A DNA stretch of 64,000 nt from Muricea muricata. Its lineage: Eukaryota > Cnidaria > Anthozoa > Malacalcyonacea > Plexauridae. A model generated the notes under the pieces. That model was given only the letters and a program-made list of their open reading frames with translations. It was not told where the DNA came from and made no database searches. Both the position numbers and the translations under genes were made by a program. Each line of letters opens with the position of its first letter. Position 1 is the stretch's first letter. The DNA is taken from NCBI GenBank assembly GCA_963855995.1, contig OY979725.1, positions 5,528,118-5,592,117 of the forward strand, written 5' to 3'. Below are positions 1 to 53,300 of the stretch, in pieces.

Positions 1-1974
1 GGGTCTTACACCCATTGATCTCATGTTTTCTAGCAATTTATTGTGATCGATGAGGTCGAAAGCCTTGCGAAAGTCGAGGAAGACTATCCTAATCACTCTA
101 TGCCTTTCGTCCATTAATTTGTGCCAATTATGTAATAAATTAACTAAGGCATTAACTGTCGATGATCGCGGTAAACCACCATATTGAGAATCCAAAATTT
201 TCCCAGTGGTATCATCATACATCCACTTAACTGCAAAGGTTTCTTGGATTTTTGCCAGGACACTTGTTAAAGCAATTGGTCTTAAATCTTCTGCAAGCGT
301 ACAAGGTATTGATTTTGGAATACCCGACACTTTATAATTCTTCCAAACTTTAGGAAAAGTTTTAGATTGAAAGGATGCATTGAAGATTTCGGTCAAGGGT
401 ACAGCAAAGTACTTTGCAAAGGTCTTCAAAATTTTCAGTAATGGATCGTTAGGGCCAGGTGCTTTATTAACATTAATTTTTTGCAGTTCTTGTTGCACTT
501 CATCGACGGTGATTAGTGGCAAATTTTCCGCGCAATGAAGTTCTAGCCATTCTTTTCCCACTTTTGGGTAATCCTTAGTTAAGTTTGCAAAGAAATGGTT
601 TATGAAGCAAGCAGACCGTTTATCATCCATCAACAGCCCAGTAGAGGGATCCACCATCGTTACTTTAGCCGACTTTTTGCCAATCAAACGCTTAATGACT
701 TTCCACCAAGATTTTGGGCGATTTTTTAGGTTTGGACCTACTTTATTCTCGTAGAAAAAGGTTTTTGCTTTCCTAATCTCTGCCGAAATCTGACTTCTGA
801 GCTTCTTTACACATTCGATATTTTTTCTTTTAAAAGCCATGTTCCTTTTAGAAATCAGGCGTTTTATTTTTGGTGTCATAAAGGGTTTGTCCTTACTGTG
901 CATTCTGACTGTCCTTTCCGGAAAATATTCAGAGATCATATTATTAGTAATGTGCAGAAACGTATTAACTTTTTCATCGGTACCAGAGATGTTGAGCACA
1001 GAAGACCAATCGTAATTTGCTAATAAGGCATCAAAACGTTCTAACTGCTGTTGTCGAAACTTTCTTACTTTAATTTTAACCGTATTTCCTTTTTCTGAAA
1101 TGTTACACTTAGATTTCCAGATAATGATGTTGTGGTCCGAAGTTGAAAGTGGAGCCACAATTGACGGAGTCTGGTAATAATCAGCCATATTAGTAAAAAT
1201 TAAATCCAATGTACTGGTGTCTCTAGTAGGGTGCATTACAATTTGTTTCAAATTACAGTGTCTCTCTAAATGTTTCTGTTGGAAGCCATTACTAGCCGGA
1301 TTGAAGTCACCTCCGAGAATAATGGCAGTATTTGGGCTTTCGACGCAGAGCTTGTCATAACAAGTGATAAAATAGTCATAAAAATTATCGATCTCAGATG
1401 TAAGTAGACTTGAAGGAAGGTATACACATCCCAATGCAATCCTTGAAATTGATCTTGGTAGCCACTTCGGCCGGATAGTAACCCATAAACATTCAAAGAA
1501 TTGATCGTTTAAATCATCACGTATTTTTAATGGTATATCATGATTAATATAAATTGCTACTCCCCCGCCTCTTCCACACAATCGGTCTCTTCTGACAATG
1601 TTTAGGCCAGAAACGTTAACAATCTCATCAGGGACCGAGTCTGTTAGCCATGTTTCTGTCACGAAAATTAGGTCTGCTCTGTAGCTTTCCTTAAGGATTT
1701 CAACTTCATTTACTTTAATAGCTAATGATCTTGCATTCGACAACATTAGGCTAGGAAAAGCTCTTTCATTTCCTTTCACAGATTTTCCGCCTGAGACTCT
1801 ATCAGAATTGATAGAGACCTCATTTAGATTGTTATAATCAGTTCTAATAATAGGGACGTTAACAAGATTGCCAAAGTTTCGTGTGCGCATCGATTTTGTT
1901 CGGCTGAAATGCTGACCTCTGGGCCCACCCATACCAAGTACTGTAGGAATGCTTTGCATGTGTTTCTCTGCCAT
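1..1974 (-). CDS. Retrotransposon endonuclease/reverse transcriptase, partial (C-terminal part off the window)
   Basis: The minus-strand frame is open from the ATG at 1974 to base 1, coding residues 1-658 of a protein that is 986 residues long in the intact copies. The part present holds the whole APE-like endonuclease that would nick target DNA, with catalytic-type motifs SNAR (N80), TETW (E107), GGDFN (D223) and SDH (279-281). It also holds the reverse-transcriptase palm up to motif A, FLDF (D634). Motif B, the FMDD motif and the thumb lie beyond the left edge, so intactness cannot be judged. I chose the ATG at 1974 because it has A at -3 and G at +4 and is the first in-frame ATG. The frame stays open a few codons further into the satellite but only offers a GTG at 2019. 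Confidence 0.9.
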   Translation of the reverse strand, partial: MAEKHMQSIPTVLGMGGPRGQHFSRTKSMRTRNFGNLVNVPIIRTDYNNLNEVSINSDRVSGGKSVKGNERAFPSLMLSNARSLAIKVNEVEILKESYRADLIFVTETWLTDSVPDEIVNVSGLNIVRRDRLCGRGGGVAIYINHDIPLKIRDDLNDQFFECLWVTIRPKWLPRSISRIALGCVYLPSSLLTSEIDNFYDYFITCYDKLCVESPNTAIILGGDFNPASNGFQQKHLERHCNLKQIVMHPTRDTSTLDLIFTNMADYYQTPSIVAPLSTSDHNIIIWKSKCNISEKGNTVKIKVRKFRQQQLERFDALLANYDWSSVLNISGTDEKVNTFLHITNNMISEYFPERTVRMHSKDKPFMTPKIKRLISKRNMAFKRKNIECVKKLRSQISAEIRKAKTFFYENKVGPNLKNRPKSWWKVIKRLIGKKSAKVTMVDPSTGLLMDDKRSACFINHFFANLTKDYPKVGKEWLELHCAENLPLITVDEVQQELQKINVNKAPGPNDPLLKILKTFAKYFAVPLTEIFNASFQSKTFPKVWKNYKVSGIPKSIPCTLAEDLRPIALTSVLAKIQETFAVKWMYDDTTGKILDSQYGGLPRSSTVNALVNLLHNWHKLMDERHRVIRIVFLDFRKAFDLIDHNKLLENMRSMGVRP

Positions 1975-2002
1975 TATACGTATGTTGTATATTCCTCCGT
2001 AC
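1..2002 (-). mobile_element. Non-LTR retrotransposon copy 1, 5' part (window edge cuts the 3' part)
   Basis: This is the 5' two-thirds of the same element seen whole at four later places. Its bases appear collinear with 18196-20197 with no net length difference. The right junction (the element's 5' end) is at 2002/2003, where satellite resumes with TGAT followed by GTACTGC. The 3' UTR and (TAA)n tail lie outside the window. The first flanking monomer carries the same private changes as the other copies (GCAAAACTTAGC, GAGATACC), so this is a copy of one original insertion and not an independent one. Confidence 0.95.
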
Positions 2003-2330
2003 TGATGTACTGCAATCACGGACCTAAAAGAGACCTTCTAAATGGAAATTGCAAAACTTAGCAAGTCGGGAATCATGTTTTCGGCGCTCAAACCATCGAG
2101 ATGAGCGAAATAACATGTTGAAATGAGATACCTATAACTTGCTTGTAAACTAAAAAGAAACGATCTTAGAACCATCAAAATCGCGTTTTAAGCGTTCTAG
2201 AAGCGATTTGAGCGTAAAAACATGTTCAAATCACGAACTAAAAATTACCGTCTAAAATCGATCACGGCGACGTTTTAGAGCTTAAAATGGTGTTTTCAGT
2301 GCTAAAGTGAACGAGTTGAGCGCAATAATG

Positions 2331-2653
2331 TACTGCAATCACGGACCTAAAAGAGACCTTCTAAATGGAAATTGCAGAACTTAGCAAGTCGGTAATCATG
2401 TTTTCGGCGCTAAAACCATCGAGATGAGCGAAATAGCATGTTGAAATGAGAAACCTATAACTTGATTGTAAACTGAAAAGAAACGATCTTAGAACCATCA
2501 AAATCGCGTTTTAAGCGTTCTAGAAGCGATTTGAGCGTAAAAACATGTTCAAATCACGAACTAAAAATTACCGTCTTAAATCGATCACGGCGACGTTTTA
2601 GAGCTTAAAATGGTGTTTTCAGTGCTAAAGTGAACGAATTGAGCGCAATAATG
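2331..2653. repeat. Representative 323-bp satellite monomer
   Basis: One full monomer, taken in the phase that starts at TACTGCAATCACGG; the next begins at 2654. Landmarks in order are CTAAAAGAGACCTTCTAAATGG, AATCATGTTTTCGGCGCT, ATCGAGATGAGCG, CATGTTGAAATGAGAAACC, a variable AAACTGAAAAGAAACG segment, AAAATCGCGTTTTAAGCG, TTCTAGAAGCGATTTGAGCG, AAATCACGAACTAAAAATTA, TCGATCACGGCGACGTTTTA and AAAATGGTGTTTTCAGTGCT. Diagnostic variation between monomers falls mostly at a small number of sites, which makes higher-order structure readable by eye. A length of 323 bp is close to two nucleosomal repeats. Confidence 0.95.
2500..2606. repeat. Satellite subunit s1 (107 bp)
   Basis: First of three diverged subunits of the monomer. 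It starts AAAATCGCGTTTTAAGCG, has TTTGAGCG at its first third and AAATCACGAACTAAAA in the middle. Aligned without gaps from GAGCG onward, roughly half of the bases equal those of s2, and 11 of the first 13 are the same. It is one base shorter than s2 and s3, with the missing base lying between GTTTT and TGAGCG. Only s1 contains the TTCTAGAA palindrome. Confidence 0.8.
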
Positions 2654-2714
2654 TACTGCAATCACGGACCTAAAAGAGACCTTCTAAATGGAAATTGCAG
2701 AACTTAGCAAGTCG
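2607..2714. repeat. Satellite subunit s2 (108 bp)
   Basis: Second subunit. It starts AAAATGGTGTTTTCAGTGCT, has GAGCG at the same offset as s1, then CAATCACGGACCTAAAAGAG matching s1 AAATCACGAACTAAAAATTA. The retrotransposon insertion site, CAATGAT|GTACTGC, lies in this subunit, just after GAGCG. Confidence 0.8.
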
Positions 2715-2822
2715 GGAATCATGTTTTCGGCGCTCAAACCATCGAGATGAGCGAAATAACATGTTGAAATGAGAAACCTATAACTTGCTTGTAAACTGCA
2801 AAGAAACGATCTTAGAACCATC
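2715..2822. repeat. Satellite subunit s3 (108 bp)
   Basis: Third subunit. It starts GGAATCATGTTTTCGGCGCT with GTTTT at +9 as in s1 and s2, then GATGAGCG at the shared offset, and GAAATGAGAAACCTATAAC where s2 has GCAATCACGGACCTAAAAG. Its tail TTGTAAACTG...CTTAGAACC aligns with s2 TTCTAAATGG...CTTAGCAAG. The next s1 starts at 2823, so s1+s2+s3 make 323 bp. Confidence 0.75.
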
Positions 2823-5800
2823 AAAATCGCGTTTTAAGCGTTCTAGAAGCGATTTGAGCGTAAAAACATGCTCAAATCTTGAACTAAAAATTACCGTATT
2901 AAATCGATCACGGCGACGTTTTAGAGCTTAAAATGGTGTTTTCAGTGCTAAACTGAACGAGTTGAGCGCAATGATGTACTGCACTGCAATCACGGACCTA
3001 AAAGAGATGTTCTAAATGGAAATTGCAGAACTTAGCAAGTCGGGAATCATGTTTTCGGCGCTCAAACCATCGAGATGAGCGAAATAACATGTTGAAATGA
3101 GAAACCTATAACTTGCTTGTAAACTGCAAAGAAACGATCTTAGAACCATCAAAATCGCGTTTTAAGCGTTCTAGAAGCGATTTGAGCGTAAAAACATGTT
3201 CAAATCACGAACTAAAAATTACCGTCTTAAATCGATCACGGCGACGTTTTAGAGCTTAAAATGGTGTTTTCAGTGCTAAAGTGAACGAGTTGAGCGCAAT
3301 AATGTACTGCAATCACGGACCTAAAAGAGACCTTCTAAATGGAAATCGCAGAACTTAGCAAGTCGGGAATCATGTTTTCGGCGCTAAAACCATCGAGATG
3401 AGCGAAATAGCATGTTGAAATGAGAAACCTATAACTTGCTTGTAAACTGAAAAGAAACGATCTTAGAACCATCAAAATCGCGTTTTAAGCGTTCTAGAAG
3501 CGATTTGAGCGTAAAAACATGTTCAAATCACGAACTAAAAATTACCGTCTTAAATCGATCACGGCGACGTTTTAGAGCTTAAAATGGTGTTTTCCGTGCT
3601 AAAGTGAACGAGTTGAGCGCAATAATGTACTGCAATCACGGACCTAAAAGAGACCTTCTAAATGGAAATTGCAGAACTTAGCAAGTCGGTAATCATGTTT
3701 TCGGCGCTAAAACCATCGAGATGAGCGAAATAGCATGTTGAAATGAGAAACCTATAACTTGATTGTAAACTGAAAAGAAACGATCTTAGAACCATCAAAA
3801 TCGCGTTTTAAGCGTTCTAGAAGCGATTTGAGCGTAAAAACATGTTCAAATCACGAACTAAAAATTACCGTCTTAAATCGATCACGGCGACGTTTTAGAG
3901 CTTAAAATGGTGTTTTCAGTGCTAAAGTGAACGAATTGAGCGCAATAATGTACTGCAATCACGGACCTAAAAGAGACCTTCTAAATGGAAATTGCAGAAC
4001 TTAGCAAGTCGGGAATCATGTTTTCGGCGCTCAAACCATCGAGATGAGCGAAATAACATGTTGAAATGAGAAACCTATAACTTGCTTGTAAACTGCAAAG
4101 AAACGATCTTAGAACCATCAAAATCGCGTTTTAAGCGTTCTAGAAGCGATTTGAGCGTAAAAACATGCTCAAATCTTGAACTAAAAATTACCGTATTAAA
4201 TCGATCACGGCGACGTTTTAGAGCTTAAAATGGTGTTTTCAGTGCTAAACTGAACGAGTTGAGCGCAATGATGTACTGCACTGCAATCACGGACCTAAAA
4301 GAGATGTTCTAAATGGAAATTGCAGAACTTAGCAAGTCGGGAATCATGTTTTCGGCGCTCAAACCATCGAGATGAGCGAAATAACATGTTGAAATGAGAA
4401 ACCTATAACTTGCTTGTAAACTGCAAAGAAACGATCTTAGAACCATCAAAATCGCGTTTTAAGCGTTCTAGAAGCGATTTGAGCGTAAAAACATGTTCAA
4501 ATCACGAACTAAAAATTACCGTCTTAAATCGATCACGGCGACGTTTTAGAGCTTAAAATGGTGTTTTCAGTGCTAAAGTGAACGAGTTGAGCGCAATAAT
4601 GTACTGCAATCACGGACCTAAAAGAGACCTTCTAAATGGAAATCGCAGAACTTAGCAAGTCGGGAATCATGTTTTCGGCGCTAAAACCATCGAGATGAGC
4701 GAAATAGCATGTTGAAATGAGAAACCTATAACTTGCTTGTAAACTGAAAAGAAACGATCTTAGAACCATCAAAATCGCGTTTTAAGCGTTCTAGAAGCGA
4801 TTTGAGCGTAAAAACATGTTCAAATCACGAACTAAAAATTACCGTCTTAAATCGATCACGGCGACGTTTTAGAGCTTAAAATGGTGTTTTCCGTGCTAAA
4901 GTGAACGAGTTGAGCGCAATAATGTACTGCAATCACGGACCTAAAAGAGACCTTCTAAATGGAAATTGCAGAACTTAGCAAGTCGGGAATCATGTTTTCG
5001 GCGCTCAAACCATCGAGATGAGCGAAATAACATGTTGAAATGAGAAACCTATAACTTGCTTGTAAACTGCAAAGAAACGATCTTAGAACCATCAAAATCG
5101 CGTTTTAAGCGTTCTAGAAGCGATTTGAGCGTAAAAACATGCTCAAATCTTGAACTAAAAATTACCGTATTAAATCGATCACGGCGACGTTTTAGAGCTT
5201 AAAATGGTGTTTTCAGTGCTAAAGTGAACGAGTTGAGCGCAATAATGTACTGCAATCACGGACCTAAAAGAGACCTTCTAAATGGAAATTGCAGAACTTA
5301 GCAAGTCGGTAATCATGTTTTCGGCGCTAAAACCATCGAGATGAGCGAAATAGCATGTTGAAATGAGAAACCTATAACTTGATTGTAAACTGAAAAGAAA
5401 CGATCTTAGAACCATCAAAATCGCGTTTTAAGCGTTCTAGAAGCGATTTGAGCGTAAAAACATGTTCAAATCACGAACTAAAAATTACCGTCTTAAATCG
5501 ATCACGGCGACGTTTTAGAGCTTAAAATGGTGTTTTCCGTGCTAAAGTGAACGAGTTGAGCGCAATAATGTACTGCAATCACGGACCTAAAAGAGACCTT
5601 CTAAATGGAAATTGCAGAACTTAGCAAGTCGGGAATCATGTTTTCGGCGCTCAAACCATCGAGATGAGCGAAATAACATGTTGAAATGAGAAACCTATAA
5701 CTTGCTTGTAAACTGCAAAGAAACGATCTTAGAACCATCAAAATCGCGTTTTAAGCGTTCTAGAAGCGATTTGAGCGTAAAAACATGCTCAAATCTTGAA

Positions 5801-5949
5801 CTAAAAATTACCGTATTAAATCGATCACGGCGACGTTTTAGAGCTTAAAATGGTGTTTTCAGTGCTAAACTGAACGAGTTGAGCGCAATGATGTACTGCA
5901 CTGCAATCACGGACCTAAAAGAGATGTTCTAAATGGAAATTGCAGAACT

Positions 5950-8610
5950 TAGCAAGTCGGGAATCATGTTTTCGGCGCTCAAACCATCGAGATGAGCGAA
6001 ATAACATGTTGAAATGAGAAACCTATAACTTGCTTGTAAACTGCAAAGAAACGATCTTAGAACCATCAAAATCGCGTTTTAAGCGTTCTAGAAGCGATTT
6101 GAGCGTAAAAACATGTTCAAATCACGAACTAAAAATTACCGTCTTAAATCGATCACGGCGACGTTTTAGAGCTTAAAATGGTGTTTTCAGTGCTAAAGTG
6201 AACGAGTTGAGCGCAATAATGTACTGCAATCACGGACCTAAAAGAGACCTTCTAAATGGAAATCGCAGAACTTAGCAAGTCGGGAATCATGTTTTCGGCG
6301 CTAAAACCATCGAGATGAGCGAAATAGCATGTTGAAATGAGAAACCTATAACTTGCTTGTAAACTGAAAAGAAACGATCTTAGAACCATCAAAATCGCGT
6401 TTTAAGCGTTCTAGAAGCGATTTGAGCGTAAAAACATGCTCAAATCACGAACTAAAAATTTCCGTCCTAAATCGATCACGGCGACGTTTTAAAGCTTAAA
6501 ATGGTGTTTTAAGTGCTAAAGTGAATGAGTTGAGCGCAATGATGTACTGCAATCACGGACCTAAAAGAGACCTTCTAAATAGAAATTGCAGAACTTAGCA
6601 AATCGGGAATCATGTTTTCGGTGCTCACACCATCGAGATGAGCGAAATAACATGTTTAAATGAGAAACCTATAACTTGCTTGTAAACTAAAAAAACGATC
6701 TTAGAACCATCAAAATCGCGTTTTAAGCGTTCTAGAAGCGATTTGAGCGTAAAAACATGTTCAAATCACGAACTAAAAATTACCGTCTTAAATCGATCAC
6801 GGCGACGTTTTAGAGCTTAAAATGGTGTTTTCAGTGCTAAAGTGAACGAGTTGAGCGCAATAATGTACTGCAATCACGGACCTAAAAGAGACCTTCTAAA
6901 TGGAAATTGCAGAACTTAGCAAGTCGGGAATCATGTTTTCGGCGCTAAAACCATCGAGATGAGCGAAATAGCATGTTGAAATGAGAAACCTATAACTTGA
7001 TTGTAAACTGAAAAGAAACGATCTTAGAACCATCAAAATCGCGTTTTAAGCGTTCTAGAAGCGATTTGAGCGTAAAAACATGCTCAAATCTTGAACTAAA
7101 AATTACCGTATTAAATCGATCACGGCGACGTTTTAGAGCTTAAAATGGTGTTTTCAGTGCTAAAGTGAACGAGTTGAGCGCAATAATGTACTGCAATCAC
7201 GGACCTAAAAGAGACCTTCTAAATGGAAATTGCAGAACTTAGCAAGTCGGGAATCATGTTTTCGGCGCTCAAACCATCGAGATGAGCGAAATAACATGTT
7301 GAAATGAGAAACCTATAACTTGCTTGTAAACTGCAAAGAAACGATCTTAGAACCATCAAAATCGCGTTTTAAGCGTTCTAGAAGCGATTTGAGCGTAAAA
7401 ACATGTTCAAATCACGAACTAAAAATTACCGTCTTAAATCGATCACGGCGACGTTTTAGAGCTTAAAATGGTGTTTTCAGTGCTAAAGTGAACGAGTTGA
7501 GCGCAATAATGTACTGCAATCACGGACCTAAAAGAGACCTTCTAAATGGAAATCGCAGAACTTAGCAAGTCGGGAATCATGTTTTCGGCGCTAAAACCAT
7601 CGAGATGAGCGAAATAGCATGTTGAAATGAGAAACCTATAACTTGCTTGTAAACTGAAAAGAAACGATCTTAGAACCATCAAAATCGCGTTTTAAGCGTT
7701 CTAGAAGCGATTTGAGCGTAAAAACATGCTCAAATCACGAACTAAAAATTTCCGTCCTAAATCGATCACGGCGACGTTTTAAAGCTTAAAATGGTGTTTT
7801 AAGTGCTAAAGTGAATGAGTTGAGCGCAATGATGTACTGCAATCACGGACCTAAAAGAGACCTTCTAAATAGAAATTGCAGAACTTAGCAAATCGGGAAT
7901 CATGTTTTCGGTGCTCACACCATCGAGATGAGCGAAATAACATGTTTAAATGAGAAACCTATAACTTGCTTGTAAACTAAAAAAACGATCTTAGAACCAT
8001 CAAAATCGCGTTTTAAGCGTTCTAGAAGCGATTTGAGCGTAAAAACATGTTCAAATCACGAACTAAAAATTACCGTCTTAAATCGATCACGGCGACGTTT
8101 TAGAGCTTAAAATGGTGTTTTCAGTGCTAAAGTGAACGAGTTGAGCGCAATAATGTACTGCAATCACGGACCTAAAAGAGACCTTCTAAATGGAAATTGC
8201 AGAACTTAGCAAGTCGGGAATCATGTTTTCGGCGCTAAAACCATCGAGATGAGCGAAATAGCATGTTGAAATGAGAAACCTATAACTTGATTGTAAACTG
8301 AAAAGAAACGATCTTAGAACCATCAAAATCGCGTTTTAAGCGTTCTAGAAGCGATTTGAGCGTAAAAACATGCTCAAATCTTGAACTAAAAATTACCGTA
8401 TTAAATCGATCACGGCGACGTTTTAGAGCTTAAAATGGTGTTTTCAGTGCTAAAGTGAACGAGTTGAGCGCAATAATGTACTGCAATCACGGACCTAAAA
8501 GAGACCTTCTAAATGGAAATTGCAGAACTTAGCAAGTCGGGAATCATGTTTTCGGCGCTCAAACCATCGAGATGAGCGAAATAACATGTTGAAATGAGAA
8601 ACCTATAACT
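5950..8610. repeat. Tandem duplication with 1,290-bp period
   Basis: The monomer with AAATAGAAATTG, AAATCGGG and GGTGCTCACACC starts at 6545 and again at 7835, and the monomers before and after it match in order. The period is 321+323+323+323. The outer limits are approximate: the left one falls inside the monomer at 5894, and the right one falls where the second copy switches to the GTAGACTAGAGAG type near 8617. Confidence 0.75.
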
Positions 8611-8799
8611 TGCTTGTAGACTAGAGAGAAACGATCTTAGAACCATCAAAATCGCGTTTTAAGCGTTCTAGAAGCGATTTGAGCGTAAAAACATGCTCAA
8701 ATCACGAACTAAAAATTACCGTCTTAAATCGATCACGGCGATGTTTTAGAGCTTAAAATGGTGTTTTCAGTGCTAAAGTGAACGAGTTGAGCGCAATGA

Positions 8800-10090
8800 T
8801 GTACTGCAATCACGGACCTTAAAGAGACCTTCTAAATGGAAATCGCAGAACTTAGCAAGTCGGGAATCATGTTTTCGGCGCTCAACCTATCGAAATGAGC
8901 AAAATAACATGTTGAAATGAGAAACCTATAACTTCCTTGTAAATTTAAAAAAACGATCTTATAACCATCAAAATCGCGTTTAAGCGTTCTAGAAGCGACT
9001 TGAGCGTAAAAACATGCTCAAATCACGAACTAAAAATTGCCGTCCTAAATCGATCACGGCGACGTTTTAGAGCCTAAAATGGTGTTTTCAGTGCTAAAGT
9101 GAACGAGTTGAGCGCAATAATGTACTGCAATCACGGACCTAAAAGAGAACTTCTAAATGGAAATTGCAGAACTTAGCAAGTCGGGAATCATGTTTTCGGC
9201 GCTAAAACCATCGAGATGAGCGAAATAGCATGTTGAAATGAGAAACCTATAACTTGCTTGTAAACTGAAAAGAAACGATCTTAGAACCATCAAAATCGCG
9301 TTTTAAGCGTTCTAGAAGCGATTTGAGCGTAAAAACTTGTTCAAATCACGAACTAAAAATTACCGTCTTAAATCGATCACGGCGACGTTTTAGAGCTTAA
9401 AATGGTGTTTTCAGTGCTAAAGTGAACGAGTTGAGCGCAATAATGTACTGCAATCACGGACCTTAAAGAGACCTTCTAAATGGAAATTGCAGAACTTAGC
9501 AAGTCGGGAATCATGTTTTCGGCGCTCAACCTAACGAAATGAGCAAAATAACATGTTGAAATGAGAAACCTATAACTTCCTTGTAAATTTAAAAAAACGA
9601 TCTTATAACCATCAAAATCGCGTTTAAGCGTTCTAGAAGCGACTTGAGCGTAAAAACATGCTCAAATCACGAACTAAAAATTGCCGTCCTAAATCGATCA
9701 CGGCGACGTTTTAGAGCCTAAAATGGTGTTTTCAGTGCTAAAGTGAACGAGTTGAGCGCAATAATGTACTGCAATCACGGACCTAAAAGAGAACTTCTAA
9801 ATGGAAATTGCAGAACTTAGCAAGTCGGGAATCATGTTTTCGGCGCTAAAACCATCGAGATGAGCGAAATAGCATGTTGAAATGAGAAACCTATAACTTG
9901 CTTGTAAACTGAAAAGAAACGATCTTAGAACCATCAAAATCGCGTTTTAAGCGTTCTAGAAGCGATTTGAGCGTAAAAACTTGTTCAAATCACGAACTAA
10001 AAATTACCGTCTTAAATCGATCACGGCGACGTTTTAGAGCTTAAAATGGTGTTTTCAGTGCTAAAGTGAACGAGTTGAGCGCAATAATGT
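8800..10090. repeat. Two-monomer (about 644 bp) tandem duplication
   Basis: The pair of monomers marked CGGACCTTAAAGAG with CTCAACCT, GCGTTTAAGCG (one T lost) and then AGAGAACTTC with AAAACTTGTTC occurs twice. AGAGAACTTC is at 9144 and 9788. The repeated pair also exists once in arrays 2 and 5, so the duplication is local to array 1. Confidence 0.75.
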
Positions 10091-11510: not shown

Positions 11511-11895
11511 TTGTTTAAATAAGAAATGAAAAACCTATAACTTGCTTGTAAACGGAAAAGAAACGATCTTAGAACCATCAAAATCGCGTTTTAAACGTTC
11601 TAGAAGCGATTTGAGCGTAAAAACATGCTCAAATCACGAACTAAAAATTGCCGTCCTAAATCGATCACGGCGACGTTTTAGTGCTTAAAATGGTGTTTTC
11701 AGTTCTAAAGTGAACGAGTTGAGCGCAATGATGTACTGCAATCACGGACCTAAAAGAGACCTTCTAAATGGAAATTGCCGAACTTAGCAAGTCGGGAATC
11801 ATCTTTTCGGCGCTCAAACACTCGAGATGAGCGAAATAACATGTTGAAATGAGAAACCTATAACTTGTTTAAATAAGAAATGAAAAACCTATAAC
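11511..11895. repeat. Expanded monomer with 31-bp internal duplication
   Basis: After CCTATAACTTG the monomer has an additional stretch TTTAAATAAGAAATGAAAAA followed by a second CCTATAACTTG, so one part of subunit s3 is duplicated and the monomer is 354 bp (TTGTTTAAAT at 11511 and 11865). The same variant recurs near 23560, 36530, 59530 and 61170. A related form, ending AAATAAGAAACC, is near 14790, 16100 and 39780. Confidence 0.8.
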
Positions 11896-16950: not shown

Positions 16951-16959
16951 AGCGCAATG

Positions 16960-40674: not shown

Positions 40675-40675
<1 letters not shown>

Positions 40676-40884: not shown

Positions 40885-43845
40885 TTAATTATTGTCAAAA
40901 GCCATATTGTATTTGCGGATCGCATATACTAAAGGACTATTGTTAAAACGTTCTGTTTTGCATTTAAAATTATAAAATTTATTTTCATTAAGTCTCGTGT
41001 GTTTCTCCCGTACCAGACCGACAATAGGTGGCAGAAGATCGTTTAGTTTGTGGGTTGGCTGTTTCATGTCTTTTATTAAATTTACACACATTATATCTCT
41101 TCTGTATTCTAGAGTGTGCAAACCACATTCAGTTAATGCCTGTTTGTAAGTCTTTCTTGGACATATTATTTTCATAGCGCGCCTTTGAATTCTCTCTATA
41201 TCTTTAGACTGTTCCTGAGTCAGGCCACCATGCCAAATTTGAGCTCCAAATTCCACAATTGATCTGATAGCCGAGATATAAAATATCTTTAAGTCTTCTC
41301 GTGGAGCATTGTACCCTTCAAGAGTTTTTAAAAAATATAACCGCTTAGCTGCCTTCTTTACAACGTATTCCGTGTTTGATTTCCACTTGAGGTCATCATC
41401 TATCCATAAACCAAGTAATTTATAAGAGCTAACTCTTTCAAGGACACAGTCATTTATTTTCATTGCAGGAATAACTGTTCTATCTTTTCGAAAGTCAATG
41501 ATCATTTCTTTACATTTTTTTGCGTTTAATACCATTTTCTCGTTTTCCGCAAAGGTTTTTACTGACTCAATTTTCTTGGGTATGTTCCCAATTTCCATTC
41601 CAGAAACGTGATAATGAACATCTAACGCCTCCCAACTCGTGGTATCGTCCATGAAGAGAATCGTATCACCATCCACAACAACATCCTCGTTTCCAACAAC
41701 TTGTTCTATAACACTAGGTAGCATATTAATTTTAATTACAAAGGCAATTGGTCCCAATTTACTGCCCTGTGGGACGCCCCCAGTAACATTTTCAAAATCA
41801 GATGTTTCTTTCCCAAACTGTGTGAAATGAGATCGCTCATTCAAGTACGAAGCAAACCATTTTATCAAGGCGGGTCTTACACCCATTGATCTCATGTTTT
41901 CTAGCAATTTATTGTGATCGATGAGGTCGAAAGCCTTGCGAAAGTCGAGGAAGACTATCCTAATCACTCTATGCCTTTCGTCCATTAATTTGTGCCAATT
42001 ATGTAATAAATTAACTAAGGCATTAACTGTCGATGATCGCGGTAAACCACCATATTGAGAATCCAAAATTTTCCCAGTGGTATCATCATACATCCACTTA
42101 ACTGCAAAGGTTTCTTGGATTTTTGCCAGGACACTTGTTAAAGCAATTGGTCTTAAATCTTCTGCAAGCGTACAAGGTATTGATTTTGGAATACCCGACA
42201 CTTTATAATTCTTCCAAACTTTAGGAAAAGTTTTAGATTGAAAGGATGCATTGAAGATTTCGGTCAAGGGTACAGCAAAGTACTTTGCAAAGGTCTTCAA
42301 AATTTTCAGTAATGGATCGTTAGGGCCAGGTGCTTTATTAACATTAATTTTTTGCAGTTCTTGTTGCACTTCATCGACGGTGATTAGTGGCAAATTTTCC
42401 GCGCAATGAAGTTCTAGCCATTCTTTTCCCACTTTTGGGTAATCCTTAGTTAAGTTTGCAAAGAAATGGTTTATGAAGCAAGCAGACCGTTTATCATCCA
42501 TCAACAGCCCAGTAGAGGGATCCACCATCGTTACTTTAGCCGACTTTTTGCCAATCAAACGCTTAATGACTTTCCACCAAGATTTTGGGCGATTTTTTAG
42601 GTTTGGACCTACTTTATTCTCGTAGAAAAAGGTTTTTGCTTTCCTAATCTCTGCCGAAATCTGACTTCTGAGCTTCTTTACACATTCGATATTTTTTCTT
42701 TTAAAAGCCATGTTCCTTTTAGAAATCAGGCGTTTTATTTTTGGTGTCATAAAGGGTTTGTCCTTACTGTGCATTCTGACTGTCCTTTCCGGAAAATATT
42801 CAGAGATCATATTATTAGTAATGTGCAGAAACGTATTAACTTTTTCATCGGTACCAGAGATGTTGAGCACAGAAGACCAATCGTAATTTGCTAATAAGGC
42901 ATCAAAACGTTCTAACTGCTGTTGTCGAAACTTTCTTACTTTAATTTTAACCGTATTTCCTTTTTCTGAAATGTTACACTTAGATTTCCAGATAATGATG
43001 TTGTGGTCCGAAGTTGAAAGTGGAGCCACAATTGACGGAGTCTGGTAATAATCAGCCATATTAGTAAAAATTAAATCCAATGTACTGGTGTCTCTAGTAG
43101 GGTGCATTACAATTTGTTTCAAATTACAGTGTCTCTCTAAATGTTTCTGTTGGAAGCCATTACTAGCCGGATTGAAGTCACCTCCGAGAATAATGGCAGT
43201 ATTTGGGCTTTCGACGCAGAGCTTGTCATAACAAGTGATAAAATAGTCATAAAAATTATCGATCTCAGATGTAAGTAGACTTGAAGGAAGGTATACACAT
43301 CCCAATGCAATCCTTGAAATTGATCTTGGTAGCCACTTCGGCCGGATAGTAACCCATAAACATTCAAAGAATTGATCGTTTAAATCATCACGTATTTTTA
43401 ATGGTATATCATGATTAATATAAATTGCTACTCCCCCGCCTCTTCCACACAATCGGTCTCTTCTGACAATGTTTAGGCCAGAAACGTTAACAATCTCATC
43501 AGGGACCGAGTCTGTTAGCCATGTTTCTGTCACGAAAATTAGGTCTGCTCTGTAGCTTTCCTTAAGGATTTCAACTTCATTTACTTTAATAGCTAATGAT
43601 CTTGCATTCGACAACATTAGGCTAGGAAAAGCTCTTTCATTTCCTTTCACAGATTTTCCGCCTGAGACTCTATCAGAATTGATAGAGACCTCATTTAGAT
43701 TGTTATAATCAGTTCTAATAATAGGGACGTTAACAAGATTGCCAAAGTTTCGTGTGCGCATCGATTTTGTTCGGCTGAAATGCTGACCTCTGGGCCCACC
43801 CATACCAAGTACTGTAGGAATGCTTTGCATGTGTTTCTCTGCCAT
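40885..43845 (-). CDS. Non-LTR retrotransposon endonuclease/reverse transcriptase, intact
   Basis: 986 residues, ATG at 43845, TAA at 40885. All endonuclease motifs (N80, E107, D223, SDH 279-281) and RT motifs (D634, GVPQGS, FMDD 731-734) are present, with Val at residue 91 as in copies 1, 2 and 5. The protein is the same as in copy 5. The C-terminal 170 residues after the thumb are rich in Lys/Arg (for example QRRAMKIICPRK) and may bind nucleic acid; this is inference only. A coding sequence without stops inside satellite DNA could reflect either recent activity of the source element or recent duplication. The identical flanks favour duplication. Confidence 0.95.
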   Translation of the reverse strand: MAEKHMQSIPTVLGMGGPRGQHFSRTKSMRTRNFGNLVNVPIIRTDYNNLNEVSINSDRVSGGKSVKGNERAFPSLMLSNARSLAIKVNEVEILKESYRADLIFVTETWLTDSVPDEIVNVSGLNIVRRDRLCGRGGGVAIYINHDIPLKIRDDLNDQFFECLWVTIRPKWLPRSISRIALGCVYLPSSLLTSEIDNFYDYFITCYDKLCVESPNTAIILGGDFNPASNGFQQKHLERHCNLKQIVMHPTRDTSTLDLIFTNMADYYQTPSIVAPLSTSDHNIIIWKSKCNISEKGNTVKIKVRKFRQQQLERFDALLANYDWSSVLNISGTDEKVNTFLHITNNMISEYFPERTVRMHSKDKPFMTPKIKRLISKRNMAFKRKNIECVKKLRSQISAEIRKAKTFFYENKVGPNLKNRPKSWWKVIKRLIGKKSAKVTMVDPSTGLLMDDKRSACFINHFFANLTKDYPKVGKEWLELHCAENLPLITVDEVQQELQKINVNKAPGPNDPLLKILKTFAKYFAVPLTEIFNASFQSKTFPKVWKNYKVSGIPKSIPCTLAEDLRPIALTSVLAKIQETFAVKWMYDDTTGKILDSQYGGLPRSSTVNALVNLLHNWHKLMDERHRVIRIVFLDFRKAFDLIDHNKLLENMRSMGVRPALIKWFASYLNERSHFTQFGKETSDFENVTGGVPQGSKLGPIAFVIKINMLPSVIEQVVGNEDVVVDGDTILFMDDTTSWEALDVHYHVSGMEIGNIPKKIESVKTFAENEKMVLNAKKCKEMIIDFRKDRTVIPAMKINDCVLERVSSYKLLGLWIDDDLKWKSNTEYVVKKAAKRLYFLKTLEGYNAPREDLKIFYISAIRSIVEFGAQIWHGGLTQEQSKDIERIQRRAMKIICPRKTYKQALTECGLHTLEYRRDIMCVNLIKDMKQPTHKLNDLLPPIVGLVREKHTRLNENKFYNFKCKTERFNNSPLVYAIRKYNMAFDNN

Positions 43846-43873
43846 TATACGTATGTTGTATATTCCTCCGTAC

Positions 43874-46800
43874 TGATGTACTGCAATCACGGACCTAAAA
43901 GAGACCTTCTAAATGGAAATTGCAAAACTTAGCAAGTCGGGAATCATGTTTTCGGCGCTCAAACCATCGAGATGAGCGAAATAACATGTTGAAATGAGAT
44001 ACCTATAACTTGCTTGTAAACTAAAAAGAAACGATCTTAGAACCATCAAAATCGCGTTTTAAGCGTTCTAGAAGCGATTTGAGCGTAAAAACATGTTCAA
44101 ATCACGAACTAAAAATTACCGTCTTAAATCGATCACGGCGACGTTTTAGAGCTTAAAATGGTGTTTTCAGTGCTAAAGTGAACGAGTTGAGCGCAATAAT
44201 GTACTGCAATCACGGACCTAAAAGAGACCTTCTAAATGGAAATTGCAGAACTTAGCAAGTCGGTAATCATGTTTTCGGCGCTAAAACCATCGAGATGAGC
44301 GAAATAGCATGTTGAAATGAGAAACCTATAACTTGATTGTAAACTGAAAAGAAACGATCTTAGAACCATCAAAATCGCGTTTTAAGCGTTCTAGAAGCGA
44401 TTTGAGCGTAAAAACATGTTCAAATCACGAACTAAAAATTACCGTCTTAAATCGATCACGGCGACGTTTTAGAGCTTAAAATGGTGTTTTCCGTGCTAAA
44501 GTGAACGAGTTGAGCGCAATAATGTACTGCAATCACGGACCTAAAAGAGACCTTCTAAATGGAAATTGCAGAACTTAGCAAGTCGGGAATCATGTTTTCG
44601 GCGCTCAAACCATCGAGATGAGCGAAATAACATGTTGAAATGAGAAACCTATAACTTGCTTGTAAACTGCAAAGAAACGATCTTAGAACCATCAAAATCG
44701 CGTTTTAAGCGTTCTAGAAGCGATTTGAGCGTAAAAACATGCTCAAATCTTGAACTAAAAATTACCGTATTAAATCGATCACGGCGACGTTTTAGAGCTT
44801 AAAATGGTGTTTTCAGTGCTAAACTGAACGAGTTGAGCGCAATGATGTACTGCACTGCAATCACGGACCTAAAAGAGATGTTCTAAATGGAAATTGCAGA
44901 ACTTAGCAAGTCGGGAATCATGTTTTCGGCGCTCAAACCATCGAGATGAGCGAAATAACATGTTGAAATGAGAAACCTATAACTTGCTTGTAAACTGCAA
45001 AGAAACGATCTTAGAACCATCAAAATCGCGTTTTAAGCGTTCTAGAAGCGATTTGAGCGTAAAAACATGTTCAAATCACGAACTAAAAATTACCGTCTTA
45101 AATCGATCACGGCGACGTTTTAGAGCTTAAAATGGTGTTTTCAGTGCTAAAGTGAACGAGTTGAGCGCAATAATGTACTGCAATCACGGACCTAAAAGAG
45201 ACCTTCTAAATGGAAATCGCAGAACTTAGCAAGTCGGGAATCATGTTTTCGGCGCTAAAACCATCGAGATGAGCGAAATAGCATGTTGAAATGAGAAACC
45301 TATAACTTGCTTGTAAACTGAAAAGAAACGATCTTAGAACCATCAAAATCGCGTTTTAAGCGTTCTAGAAGCGATTTGAGCGTAAAAACATGCTCAAATC
45401 ACGAACTAAAAATTTCCGTCCTAAATCGATCACGGCGACGTTTTAAAGCTTAAAATGGTGTTTTAAGTGCTAAAGTGAATGAGTTGAGCGCAATGATGTA
45501 CTGCAATCACGGACCTAAAAGAGACCTTCTAAATAGAAATTGCAGAACTTAGCAAATCGGGAATCATGTTTTCGGTGCTCACACCATCGAGATGAGCGAA
45601 ATAACATGTTTAAATGAGAAACCTATAACTTGCTTGTAAACTAAAAAAACGATCTTAGAACCATCAAAATCGCGTTTTAAGCGTTCTAGAAGCGATTTGA
45701 GCGTAAAAACATGTTCAAATCACGAACTAAAAATTACCGTCTTAAATCGATCACGGCGACGTTTTAGAGCTTAAAATGGTGTTTTCAGTGCTAAAGTGAA
45801 CGAGTTGAGCGCAATAATGTACTGCAATCACGGACCTAAAAGAGACCTTCTAAATGGAAATTGCAGAACTTAGCAAGTCGGGAATCATGTTTTCGGCGCT
45901 AAAACCATCGAGATGAGCGAAATAGCATGTTGAAATGAGAAACCTATAACTTGATTGTAAACTGAAAAGAAACGATCTTAGAACCATCAAAATCGCGTTT
46001 TAAGCGTTCTAGAAGCGATTTGAGCGTAAAAACATGCTCAAATCTTGAACTAAAAATTACCGTATTAAATCGATCACGGCGACGTTTTAGAGCTTAAAAT
46101 GGTGTTTTCAGTGCTAAAGTGAACGAGTTGAGCGCAATAATGTACTGCAATCACGGACCTAAAAGAGACCTTCTAAATGGAAATTGCAGAACTTAGCAAG
46201 TCGGGAATCATGTTTTCGGCGCTAAAACCATCGAGATGAGCGAAATAGCATGTTGAAATGAGAAACCTATAACTTGATTGTAAACGGAAAAGAAACGATC
46301 TTAGAACCATCAAAATCGCGTTTTAAGCGTTCTAGAAGCGATTTGAGCGTAAACACATGCTCAAATCACGAACTAAAAATTACCGTCTTAAATCGATCAG
46401 GGCAACGTTTTAGAGCTTAAAATGGTGTTTTCAGTTCTAAAGTGAACGAGTTGAGCGATATGATGTACTGCAATCACGGACCTAAAAGAGACCTTCTAAA
46501 TGGAAATTGCCGAACTTAGCAAGTTGGGAATCATGTTTTCGGCGCTCAACCTATCGAGATGAGCGAGATAACATGTTGAAATGAGAAACCTATAACTTCC
46601 TTTTAAATTTAAAAAAACGATCTTAGAACCATCAAAATCGCGTTTTAAGCGTTCTAGAAGCGATTTGAGCGTAAAAACATGCTCAAATCACGAATTAAAA
46701 ATATCCGTCCTAAATCGATCACGGCGACGGTTTAGAGCTTAAAATGGTGTTTTCAGTGCTAAAGTGAACGAGTTGAGCGCAATGATGTACTGCAATCACG

Positions 46801-47105
46801 GACTTAAAAGAGACCTTCTAAATGGAAATTGCAGAACTTAGCAAGTCGGGAATCATGTTTTCGGTGCTCACACCATGGAGATGAGCGAAATAACATGTTG
46901 AAATGAAAAACCTATAACTTGCTTGTAAACTAAAAAAACGATCTTAGAACCATCAAAATCGCGTTTTAAGTGTTCTAGAAGCGATTTGAGCGTAAAAACA
47001 TGCTCAAATCACGAACTAAAAATTACCGTCTTAAATCGATCACAGCGACGTTTTAAGGCTTAAAATGGTGTTTTCAGTGATAAAGTGAACGAGTTGAGCG
47101 CAATG

Positions 47106-47107
<2 letters not shown>
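43874..47107. repeat. Satellite array 4 (10 monomers)
   Basis: The shortest array, lying between copies 4 and 5. Its left part (to about 46285) is the right flank of an element: A (CCGTGCT ending), B, C, D', AAATAGAAATTG type, then two CTTGATTG monomers. Its right part is the left flank of an element (GATATGATG, AAAAATATCCG, CGGACTTAAAAG, GTTTTAAGGC). No gene is seen. Confidence 0.95.

Positions 47108-47140
<33 letters not shown>
47108..47140 (-). repeat. (TAA)11 3' tail of element copy 5
   Basis: Eleven TTA units on the + strand, joined to satellite CAATGAT exactly as in copies 2-4. Confidence 0.9.
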
Positions 47141-47141
<1 letters not shown>

Positions 47142-47350
47142 AAATACACACATTAAGTAGCTTAGACAGCTAAATTGTTATGTGATTTACATGAAAAAGA
47201 GAGACGAAATCAATTATATGTATATAAGTACAATTACAGAGTTTTTGTAAAACTACAATCTATATTAAAAATAATTAATTAAAAGTGCCCCAGAATACCA
47301 AAGCCATAGTAGTTCAATAGTTAAAATATTTGAAATCCAAGAAAAAACCA

Positions 47351-50311
47351 TTAATTATTGTCAAAAGCCATATTGTATTTGCGGATCGCATATACTAAAG
47401 GACTATTGTTAAAACGTTCTGTTTTGCATTTAAAATTATAAAATTTATTTTCATTAAGTCTCGTGTGTTTCTCCCGTACCAGACCGACAATAGGTGGCAG
47501 AAGATCGTTTAGTTTGTGGGTTGGCTGTTTCATGTCTTTTATTAAATTTACACACATTATATCTCTTCTGTATTCTAGAGTGTGCAAACCACATTCAGTT
47601 AATGCCTGTTTGTAAGTCTTTCTTGGACATATTATTTTCATAGCGCGCCTTTGAATTCTCTCTATATCTTTAGACTGTTCCTGAGTCAGGCCACCATGCC
47701 AAATTTGAGCTCCAAATTCCACAATTGATCTGATAGCCGAGATATAAAATATCTTTAAGTCTTCTCGTGGAGCATTGTACCCTTCAAGAGTTTTTAAAAA
47801 ATATAACCGCTTAGCTGCCTTCTTTACAACGTATTCCGTGTTTGATTTCCACTTGAGGTCATCATCTATCCATAAACCAAGTAATTTATAAGAGCTAACT
47901 CTTTCAAGGACACAGTCATTTATTTTCATTGCAGGAATAACTGTTCTATCTTTTCGAAAGTCAATGATCATTTCTTTACATTTTTTTGCGTTTAATACCA
48001 TTTTCTCGTTTTCCGCAAAGGTTTTTACTGACTCAATTTTCTTGGGTATGTTCCCAATTTCCATTCCAGAAACGTGATAATGAACATCTAACGCCTCCCA
48101 ACTCGTGGTATCGTCCATGAAGAGAATCGTATCACCATCCACAACAACATCCTCGTTTCCAACAACTTGTTCTATAACACTAGGTAGCATATTAATTTTA
48201 ATTACAAAGGCAATTGGTCCCAATTTACTGCCCTGTGGGACGCCCCCAGTAACATTTTCAAAATCAGATGTTTCTTTCCCAAACTGTGTGAAATGAGATC
48301 GCTCATTCAAGTACGAAGCAAACCATTTTATCAAGGCGGGTCTTACACCCATTGATCTCATGTTTTCTAGCAATTTATTGTGATCGATGAGGTCGAAAGC
48401 CTTGCGAAAGTCGAGGAAGACTATCCTAATCACTCTATGCCTTTCGTCCATTAATTTGTGCCAATTATGTAATAAATTAACTAAGGCATTAACTGTCGAT
48501 GATCGCGGTAAACCACCATATTGAGAATCCAAAATTTTCCCAGTGGTATCATCATACATCCACTTAACTGCAAAGGTTTCTTGGATTTTTGCCAGGACAC
48601 TTGTTAAAGCAATTGGTCTTAAATCTTCTGCAAGCGTACAAGGTATTGATTTTGGAATACCCGACACTTTATAATTCTTCCAAACTTTAGGAAAAGTTTT
48701 AGATTGAAAGGATGCATTGAAGATTTCGGTCAAGGGTACAGCAAAGTACTTTGCAAAGGTCTTCAAAATTTTCAGTAATGGATCGTTAGGGCCAGGTGCT
48801 TTATTAACATTAATTTTTTGCAGTTCTTGTTGCACTTCATCGACGGTGATTAGTGGCAAATTTTCCGCGCAATGAAGTTCTAGCCATTCTTTTCCCACTT
48901 TTGGGTAATCCTTAGTTAAGTTTGCAAAGAAATGGTTTATGAAGCAAGCAGACCGTTTATCATCCATCAACAGCCCAGTAGAGGGATCCACCATCGTTAC
49001 TTTAGCCGACTTTTTGCCAATCAAACGCTTAATGACTTTCCACCAAGATTTTGGGCGATTTTTTAGGTTTGGACCTACTTTATTCTCGTAGAAAAAGGTT
49101 TTTGCTTTCCTAATCTCTGCCGAAATCTGACTTCTGAGCTTCTTTACACATTCGATATTTTTTCTTTTAAAAGCCATGTTCCTTTTAGAAATCAGGCGTT
49201 TTATTTTTGGTGTCATAAAGGGTTTGTCCTTACTGTGCATTCTGACTGTCCTTTCCGGAAAATATTCAGAGATCATATTATTAGTAATGTGCAGAAACGT
49301 ATTAACTTTTTCATCGGTACCAGAGATGTTGAGCACAGAAGACCAATCGTAATTTGCTAATAAGGCATCAAAACGTTCTAACTGCTGTTGTCGAAACTTT
49401 CTTACTTTAATTTTAACCGTATTTCCTTTTTCTGAAATGTTACACTTAGATTTCCAGATAATGATGTTGTGGTCCGAAGTTGAAAGTGGAGCCACAATTG
49501 ACGGAGTCTGGTAATAATCAGCCATATTAGTAAAAATTAAATCCAATGTACTGGTGTCTCTAGTAGGGTGCATTACAATTTGTTTCAAATTACAGTGTCT
49601 CTCTAAATGTTTCTGTTGGAAGCCATTACTAGCCGGATTGAAGTCACCTCCGAGAATAATGGCAGTATTTGGGCTTTCGACGCAGAGCTTGTCATAACAA
49701 GTGATAAAATAGTCATAAAAATTATCGATCTCAGATGTAAGTAGACTTGAAGGAAGGTATACACATCCCAATGCAATCCTTGAAATTGATCTTGGTAGCC
49801 ACTTCGGCCGGATAGTAACCCATAAACATTCAAAGAATTGATCGTTTAAATCATCACGTATTTTTAATGGTATATCATGATTAATATAAATTGCTACTCC
49901 CCCGCCTCTTCCACACAATCGGTCTCTTCTGACAATGTTTAGGCCAGAAACGTTAACAATCTCATCAGGGACCGAGTCTGTTAGCCATGTTTCTGTCACG
50001 AAAATTAGGTCTGCTCTGTAGCTTTCCTTAAGGATTTCAACTTCATTTACTTTAATAGCTAATGATCTTGCATTCGACAACATTAGGCTAGGAAAAGCTC
50101 TTTCATTTCCTTTCACAGATTTTCCGCCTGAGACTCTATCAGAATTGATAGAGACCTCATTTAGATTGTTATAATCAGTTCTAATAATAGGGACGTTAAC
50201 AAGATTGCCAAAGTTTCGTGTGCGCATCGATTTTGTTCGGCTGAAATGCTGACCTCTGGGCCCACCCATACCAAGTACTGTAGGAATGCTTTGCATGTGT
50301 TTCTCTGCCAT
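47351..50311 (-). CDS. Non-LTR retrotransposon endonuclease/reverse transcriptase, intact
   Basis: 986 residues, ATG at 50311, TAA at 47351, equal in sequence to the copy 4 product. Endonuclease about 75-285, linker of about 135 residues rich in Lys/Arg (KRNMAFKRKN, KSWWKVIKRL), RT about 420-760, thumb and basic C-terminus to 986. The length fits ORF2 proteins of CR1-like elements (about 900-1,000 residues). The partner ORF1, which in bicistronic relatives codes an RNA-binding protein, is absent upstream, where satellite begins 28 bp before the ATG. Confidence 0.95.
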   Translation of the reverse strand: MAEKHMQSIPTVLGMGGPRGQHFSRTKSMRTRNFGNLVNVPIIRTDYNNLNEVSINSDRVSGGKSVKGNERAFPSLMLSNARSLAIKVNEVEILKESYRADLIFVTETWLTDSVPDEIVNVSGLNIVRRDRLCGRGGGVAIYINHDIPLKIRDDLNDQFFECLWVTIRPKWLPRSISRIALGCVYLPSSLLTSEIDNFYDYFITCYDKLCVESPNTAIILGGDFNPASNGFQQKHLERHCNLKQIVMHPTRDTSTLDLIFTNMADYYQTPSIVAPLSTSDHNIIIWKSKCNISEKGNTVKIKVRKFRQQQLERFDALLANYDWSSVLNISGTDEKVNTFLHITNNMISEYFPERTVRMHSKDKPFMTPKIKRLISKRNMAFKRKNIECVKKLRSQISAEIRKAKTFFYENKVGPNLKNRPKSWWKVIKRLIGKKSAKVTMVDPSTGLLMDDKRSACFINHFFANLTKDYPKVGKEWLELHCAENLPLITVDEVQQELQKINVNKAPGPNDPLLKILKTFAKYFAVPLTEIFNASFQSKTFPKVWKNYKVSGIPKSIPCTLAEDLRPIALTSVLAKIQETFAVKWMYDDTTGKILDSQYGGLPRSSTVNALVNLLHNWHKLMDERHRVIRIVFLDFRKAFDLIDHNKLLENMRSMGVRPALIKWFASYLNERSHFTQFGKETSDFENVTGGVPQGSKLGPIAFVIKINMLPSVIEQVVGNEDVVVDGDTILFMDDTTSWEALDVHYHVSGMEIGNIPKKIESVKTFAENEKMVLNAKKCKEMIIDFRKDRTVIPAMKINDCVLERVSSYKLLGLWIDDDLKWKSNTEYVVKKAAKRLYFLKTLEGYNAPREDLKIFYISAIRSIVEFGAQIWHGGLTQEQSKDIERIQRRAMKIICPRKTYKQALTECGLHTLEYRRDIMCVNLIKDMKQPTHKLNDLLPPIVGLVREKHTRLNENKFYNFKCKTERFNNSPLVYAIRKYNMAFDNN

Positions 50312-50339
50312 TATACGTATGTTGTATATTCCTCCGTAC

Positions 50340-53300
50340 TGATGTACTGCAATCACGGACCTAAAAGAGACCTTCTAAATGGAAATTGCAAAACTTAGCA
50401 AGTCGGGAATCATGTTTTCGGCGCTCAAACCATCGAGATGAGCGAAATAACATGTTGAAATGAGATACCTATAACTTGCTTGTAAACTAAAAAGAAACGA
50501 TCTTAGAACCATCAAAATCGCGTTTTAAGCGTTCTAGAAGCGATTTGAGCGTAAAAACATGTTCAAATCACGAACTAAAAATTACCGTCTTAAATCGATC
50601 ACGGCGACGTTTTAGAGCTTAAAATGGTGTTTTCAGTGCTAAAGTGAACGAGTTGAGCGCAATAATGTACTGCAATCACGGACCTAAAAGAGACCTTCTA
50701 AATGGAAATTGCAGAACTTAGCAAGTCGGTAATCATGTTTTCGGCGCTAAAACCATCGAGATGAGCGAAATAGCATGTTGAAATGAGAAACCTATAACTT
50801 GATTGTAAACTGAAAAGAAACGATCTTAGAACCATCAAAATCGCGTTTTAAGCAATCTAGAAGCGATTTGAGCGTAAAAACATGTTCAAATCACGAACTA
50901 AAAATTACCGTCTTAAATCGATCACGGCGACGTTTTAGAGCTTAAAATGGTGTTTTCCGTGCTAAAGTGAACGAGTTGAGCGCAATAATGTACTGCAATC
51001 ACGGACCTAAAAGAGACCTTCTAAATGGAAATTGCAGAACTTAGCAAGTCGGGAATCATGTTTTCGGCGCTCAAACCATCGAGATGAGCGAAATAACATG
51101 TTGAAATGAGAAACCTATAACTTGCTTGTAAACTGCAAAGAAACGATCTTAGAACCATCAAAATCGCGTTTTAAGCGTTCTAGAAGCGATTTGAGCGTAA
51201 AAACATGCTCAAATCTTGAACTAAAAATTACCGTATTAAATCGATCACGGCGACGTTTTAGAGCTTAAAATGGTGTTTTCAGTGCTAAACTGAACGAGTT
51301 GAGCGCAATGATGTACTGCACTGCAATCACGGACCTAAAAGAGATGTTCTAAATGGAAATTGCAGAACTTAGCAAGTCGGGAATCATGTTTTCGGCGCTC
51401 AAACCATCGAGATGAGCGAAATAACATGTTGAAATGAGAAACCTATAACTTGCTTGTAAACTGCAAAGAAACGATCTTAGAACCATCAAAATCGCGTTTT
51501 AAGCGTTCTAGAAGCGATTTGAGCGTAAAAACATGTTCAAATCACGAACTAAAAATTACCGTCTTAAATCGATCACGGCGACGTTTTAGAGCTTAAAATG
51601 GTGTTTTCAGTGCTAAAGTGAACGAGTTGAGCGCAATAATGTACTGCAATCACGGACCTAAAAGAGACCTTCTAAATGGAAATCGCAGAACTTAGCAAGT
51701 CGGGAATCATGTTTTCGGCGCTAAAACCATCGAGATGAGCGAAATAGCATGTTGAAATGAGAAACCTATAACTTGCTTGTAAACTGAAAAGAAACGATCT
51801 TAGAACCATCAAAATCGCGTTTTAAGCGTTCTAGAAGCGATTTGAGCGTAAAAACATGCTCAAATCACGAACTAAAAATTTCCGTCCTAAATCGATCACG
51901 GCGACGTTTTAAAGCTTAAAATGGTGTTTTAAGTGCTAAAGTGAATGAGTTGAGCGCAATGATGTACTGCAATCACGGACCTAAAAGAGACCTTCTAAAT
52001 AGAAATTGCAGAACTTAGCAAATCGGGAATCATGTTTTCGGTGCTCACACCATCGAGATGAGCGAAATAACATGTTTAAATGAGAAACCTATAACTTGCT
52101 TGTAAACTAAAAAAACGATCTTAGAACCATCAAAATCGCGTTTTAAGCGTTCTAGAAGCGATTTGAGCGTAAAAACATGTTCAAATCACGAACTAAAAAT
52201 TACCGTCTTAAATCGATCACGGCGACGTTTTAGAGCTTAAAATGGTGTTTTCAGTGCTAAAGTGAACGAGTTGAGCGCAATAATGTACTGCAATCACGGA
52301 CCTAAAAGAGACCTTCTAAATGGAAATTGCAGAACTTAGCAAGTCGGGAATCATGTTTTCGGCGCTAAAACCATCGAGATGAGCGAAATAGCATGTTGAA
52401 ATGAGAAACCTATAACTTGATTGTAAACTGAAAAGAAACGATCTTAGAACCATCAAAATCGCGTTTTAAGCGTTCTAGAAGCGATTTGAGCGTAAAAACA
52501 TGCTCAAATCTTGAACTAAAAATTACCGTATTAAATCGATCACGGCGACGTTTTAGAGCTTAAAATGGTGTTTTCAGTGCTAAAGTGAACGAGTTGAGCG
52601 CAATAATGTACTGCAATCACGGACCTAAAAGAGACCTTCTAAATGGAAATTGCAGAACTTAGCAAGTCGGGAATCATGTTTTCGGCGCTAAAACCATCGA
52701 GATGAGCGAAATAGCATGTTGAAATGAGAAACCTATAACTTGATTGTAAACTGAAAAGAAACGATCTTAGAACCATCAAAATCGCGTTTTAAGCGTTCTA
52801 GAAGCGATTTGAGCGTAAAACATGCTCAAATCTTGAACTAAAAATTACCGTATTAAATCGATCACGGCGACGTTTTAGAGCTTAAAATGGTGTTTTCAGT
52901 GCTAAACTGAACGAGTTGAGCGCAATGATGTACTGCACTGCAATCACGGACCTAAAAGAGATGTTCTAAATGGAAATTGCAGAACTTAGCAAGTCGGGAA
53001 TCATGTTTTCGGCGCTCAAACCATCGAGATGAGCGAAATAACATGTTGAAATGAGAAACCTATAACTTGCTTGTAAACTGCAAAGAAACGATCTTAGAAC
53101 CATCAAAATCGCGTTTTAAGCGTTCTAGAATCGATTTGAGCGTAAAAACATGTTCAAATCACGAACTAAAAATTACCGTCTTAAATCGATCACGGCGACG
53201 TTTTAGAGCTTAAAATGGTGTTTTCAGTGCTAAAGTGAACGAGTTGAGCGCAATAATGTACTGCAATCACAGACCTAAAAGAGACCTTGTAAATGGAAAT

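Follow-up and report, generated by a model that had tools for sequence, protein, structure and literature searches.

One LINE insertion, very probably multiplied by duplication of a 323-bp satellite array in Muricea muricata

Transposon copy number is usually taken as the number of jumps, and a satellite array that carries several copies of the same retrotransposon raises the question of whether each copy arrived on its own. Here, this question was addressed for a stretch of 64,000 nucleotides from Muricea muricata (GenBank assembly GCA_963855995.1, contig OY979725.1, positions 5,528,118 to 5,592,117 of the forward strand; hereafter the window), in which a single 3.2-kb LINE (non-LTR retrotransposon) is present in five copies, every copy lying on the minus strand with its 5' end on the right and its 3' end on the left. 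Our analysis strongly favors one LINE insertion that was multiplied by duplication of the surrounding satellite array, in which case the five copies would be paralogues and not the outcome of five retrotranspositions.

The copies are nearly identical. E1 (1..2002) is cut by the window edge and comprises only the 5' part, with an ORF that stays open for 658 aa to the edge, and E2 (16962..20197, 3236 bp) has its first stop after 705 aa. E3 (25396..28627), E4 (40642..43873), and E5 (47108..50339) each measure 3232 bp and carry a 986-aa ORF, which is thus open in three of the four whole copies. The last element had initially been drawn to 50343, a figure that includes the four bases TGAT; the element itself ends at 50339. 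A single substitution distinguishes the five copies, with Leu encoded in E3 and Val in E1, E2, E4, and E5, and a 4-bp AATT duplication separates E2 from E3, E4, and E5 (E1 is cut before that place). From E1 to E5, the copies follow one another at 18195, 8430, 15246, and 6466 bp.

The first ATG used in the ORF is element base 29, and the start looks complete, given that the N-terminus has a similar extent in 7 of 11 aligned relatives (P0001, P0003, P0004, P0008, P0009, P0011, and P0012) and starts later in the remaining four. Pfam RVT_1 identifies the reverse transcriptase, shown for E5, at 80.1 bits against a cut-off of 29.6, preceded by a possible endonuclease region whose match to Exo_endo_phos_2, 21.3 bits, lies under the cut-off of 27.4; relatives including P0003-P0006 are listed with PF03372. 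A reverse transcriptase domain, a short target duplication, and a simple-repeat or A-rich tail at the 3' end are hallmarks of LINEs, all present here, and ten solved-structure matches of the protein include R2 and L1 ORF2p. All six ORFs of at least 100 aa in the window fall within the LINE copies, apart from a few starting codons in the satellite. The RT active site reads FMDD (47351-50356, minus strand), likewise in P0003, P0004, P0005, and P0007, and FMGD in P0001, a 93% relative. P0001 is identical at 827 of 886 residues and represents the 159 members of a 90% cluster; judged from these sequence relationships, the LINE appears to belong to an older family that extends beyond the window. Among the 120 of 558 matches listed, those named by organism are Branchiostoma and Pocillopora, at 31-33% identity. 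Searches for relatives elsewhere returned 15 pattern-matching stretches in GTDB genome contigs and 5 in viral contigs, none confirmed in either set, and one plasmid match (24.8% identity, residues 503-910).

Around the elements, the window consists of a satellite with a 323-bp period and a further period of ~108 bp, which was read as 151 anchored monomers and split by the elements into five segments: segment 1 (2003..16961, 46 monomers), segment 2 (20198..25395, 16), segment 3 (28628..40641, 37), segment 4 (43874..47107, 10), and segment 5 (50340..64000, 42, extending to the window edge). Clustered at a mean distance of 8 differences, the monomers formed 29 types. Monomer spacing is usually 321-323 bp, and values of 327-328, 341, and 354-355 bp are also found in at least two segments (2003-64000). 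The CpG observed/expected ratio is 1.63 in satellite segment 5 (50340-64000) vs 0.82 in element copy E5 (47108-50339). Rfam at gathering thresholds gave no match in the window, the satellite pattern gave none in genome contigs, and an exact CENP-B box pattern was absent from one strand of the consensus monomer.

The insertion site is the same in every copy. The right junction CCGTACTGATGTACTGC occurs five times in the window and the left junction CAATGATTTATTATTA four times, confirming the proposal of the initial annotation that the copies share one orientation and interrupt the monomer at one base (5/5 right and 4/4 left junctions). At the filled site, CAATGAT stands ahead of the tail and TGATGTACTGC follows the 5' end of the element, so that TGAT is present twice as a 4-bp target duplication at all of these junctions. 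The identical (TAA)11 tail that had been described for the four visible 3' ends was likewise found in 4/4. By comparison, the unbroken target CAATGATGTACTGC is present at 81 exact sites in the window.

The copies also share states in the adjoining monomers that are rare or absent in the rest of the array. The left-flank monomers of E2 (16641..16961), E4 (40321..40641), and E5 (46787..47107) belong to type 18, and that of E3 (25075..25395) is a hybrid whose element side is type 18 (exact over 214 bases) and whose distal part is type 03-like. In the alignment of 151 monomers, four states of the left monomer, all carried by the E2 flank, were present in 4/4 element flanks and in 0/147 others; in the right monomer, one state was present in 5/5 element flanks vs 0/146 others and a second in 5/5 vs 1/146. 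In terms of short marks, GAGATACC occurs at five places and GTTTTAAGGC and GTGATAAAG at four places each, every one of them adjoining an element, and for these three the flanking changes first reported as private to the elements are indeed so. The fourth such mark, GCAAAACTTAGC, is less exclusive, as it occurs at six places, one of which (38734) lacks an element, in agreement with the right-monomer state that recurs in 1/146 others.

Exact identity beyond the junctions extends over 251 to 1519 bases on the right in 10/10 element pairs and over 214 to 830 bases on the left in 6/6. With element-adjacent monomers excluded and runs ended at segment ends, right runs of at least 251 were reached by 150 of 10585 control monomer pairs (1.4%; counted from the monomer start, 4 bases shorter than the element-pair count) and left runs of at least 214 by 149 of 10585 (1.4%). 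A right run of 251 is nevertheless reached by 24% of 561 other pairs of the same type, which means that the flanks resemble one another as paralogous same-type monomers do and not beyond. The argument for one insertion therefore rests on the private states and not on the length of identity alone.

The order of monomer types carries the resemblance further outward. Neighboring-monomer order is shared above the maximum of 200 shuffles in 7/10 segment pairs, and the three pairs that do not exceed the shuffles (1-4, 2-4, and 4-5) all include the 10-monomer segment 4. Segments 3 and 5 agree in the 16 monomers that follow E3 and E5 (~5.2 kb) and, past one extra monomer, in 5 more. Hybrid monomers, found to the left of E3 and as type 27 in segment 4, fuse the leading part of one type with the trailing part of a second, marking breakpoints within the array. 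The longest exact right flank links E1 and E3 (identical over 1519 bases), but the longest exact left flank links E4 and E5 (830 bases, followed by E2-E4 and E2-E5 with 671), so that a single order of duplication does not follow. The copies lie 46, 16, 37, and 10 monomers apart, a spacing that lacks the fixed unit length of a regular higher-order repeat; describing the element as a component of the array unit was accordingly an overstatement, and the irregularity looks like the outcome of overlapping block duplications and deletions.

Simple co-duplication predicts that element and flank change equally, and on the right this is not what was observed. When all five copies are compared, 7 of 646 positions vary in the right flank vs 1 of 2002 in the element (Fisher P = 0.0003); for E3, E4, and E5, the figures are 8 of 2264 vs 1 of 3232 (P = 0.005); and for E3 and E5, 18 of 6783 vs 1 of 3232 (P = 0.012), with neighboring changes scored separately in these counts. 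The excess counts against the simplest form of co-duplication, and if copies exchange sequence later, equal divergence does not define the class. The left flank has no differences over 643 bp in three copies, a stretch too short to decide, and right monomers 3 and 4 have none across four copies; from these unchanged parts, the flank changes are patchy. At 15 of the 18 sites between E3 and E5, no more than one monomer of another type carries the rarer state, so that for most sites no donor is seen among the other types of the window. CpG decay as the main cause of the faster flank change was considered and is not supported, since 4 of the 17 substitutions listed between E3 and E5 involve a CpG in one of their two states and the CpG ratio of the satellite is 1.63.

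The single element substitution adds to this picture. Leu occupies the substituted site in 9 of the 10 aligned relatives that have a residue there, the exception being His in P0006 at that relative's own N-terminal edge, and by this comparison E3 probably keeps the older state. E1 and E3, in turn, have two right-flank states in common that scarcely occur elsewhere (0 and 1 times). An older Leu in E3 combined with flank states shared by E1 and E3 requires either back-change or sequence exchange among the copies, and we lean toward exchange, on small numbers.

We consider it very probable that these observations reflect one insertion multiplied with the array, as the initial annotation had proposed for an element amplified without retrotransposition; the private states, the target duplication, the tail, the monomer order, and the hybrids all fit. 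A LINE with an endonuclease-like part followed by a reverse transcriptase and with a (TAA)n tail would have inserted once into one 323-bp monomer, presumably by target-primed reverse transcription, and the 4-bp target duplication would have been made at that single event. The monomer and the neighboring array would then have been duplicated several times as misaligned monomers recombined or served as templates for repair, a process that would also have taken out and added monomers between the LINE copies. The route may have been unequal crossing-over, break-induced replication, or conversion; we infer both this route and the succession of the array duplications. For arrays of this kind, a review sets unequal crossing-over against break-induced replication and, in the passages drawn on here, takes flanking-sequence linkage in Arabidopsis to speak against unequal crossing-over (PMC11579429). 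The present data do not separate these two.

The position of every copy at one monomer base could also be the mark of a site-specific LINE. Such elements are well known, with R1 and R2 targeting rDNA and SART and TRAS targeting telomeric repeats, and the five copies would then be separate insertions into a preferred point of the monomer. This would require that the marked monomer was amplified before any insertion and that each of its copies was then hit, while the 81 exact target sites of the window stayed empty. Within the window, each visible copy sits in the same marked monomer, no element occurs outside the marked monomers, and no element-free junction of type 18 with type 00 is present; the same junction between differing flank monomers, the case that had been named as pointing to site-specific insertion, was not seen, nor was the same site filled in differing variants of the host repeat. 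With one tail length and one substitution among the copies as well, we regard site-specific insertion as highly improbable.

Somewhat less improbable, and still hardly to be expected, is an insertion into an array whose units were already multiplied, with gene conversion then spreading the element to the equivalent position in sister units. That the element has changed less than the right flank, and that its one variable site is discordant with the flank states, would suit such a history, but no element-free sister unit is seen in the window, the left private states are missing from all 147 other monomers, and the left flank has no excess of change over its 643 bp. Satellite arrays are also difficult to assemble, and mis-joined repeats might have multiplied a smaller number of true copies. 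The segments, however, differ in length, order, private variants, and hybrid monomers, differences that mis-joining one sequence would not create, making an artefact the most improbable of these explanations. We therefore prefer the reading of a single insertion with later duplication of the array.

ATHILA is reportedly duplicated within Arabidopsis arrays, and duplication of retroelements following their insertion is already known from plant centromeres. In Brachypodium, CRM is described as duplicated post-integration into centromeres in the part of the source considered (PMC10910784). As far as these accounts go, they resemble the present case in that retroelements of centromeric arrays are said to have been duplicated after integration and not newly transposed, and they differ in that CRM and ATHILA are plant LTR retrotransposons, whereas here the element is of LINE type and the junctions and flank states were traced per base. 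The human DXZ1 array on the X chromosome likewise has a LINE inside a satellite, and arrays of this sort are described as containing hybrid monomers; the excerpts consulted report a single L1Hs insertion, unlike the five copies here (PMC7484160; PMC8336445). The Celine LINE accumulates in poplar centromeres, and its authors state, in the section considered, that amplification within the target element would show duplicated target duplications and flanks; each Celine copy has a unique target duplication, whereas the present copies have one in common (PMC11288735). In rye, tandem repeats and adjacent transposable elements expand jointly, as is proposed here, which the cited passages attribute to recombination, with the difference that the elements flank the arrays and solo LTRs are enriched (PMC4857426). 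In the part of the literature covered, no report was found of one LINE insertion multiplied by a satellite array.

With the 986-aa frame open in three whole copies, the dynamics of the array may be increasing the number of possible source genes. By extension, the array might breed an autonomous LINE, multiplying an intact 986-aa copy while exchange keeps the copies near-identical and thereby holding a bank of possible source genes without retrotransposition, a speculative idea that we put forward as unlikely. If the reading of one insertion followed by array duplication is true, four of the five visible copies came about with no jump of their own, and the LINE would serve as a long, readable marker of block duplication and deletion in the array.
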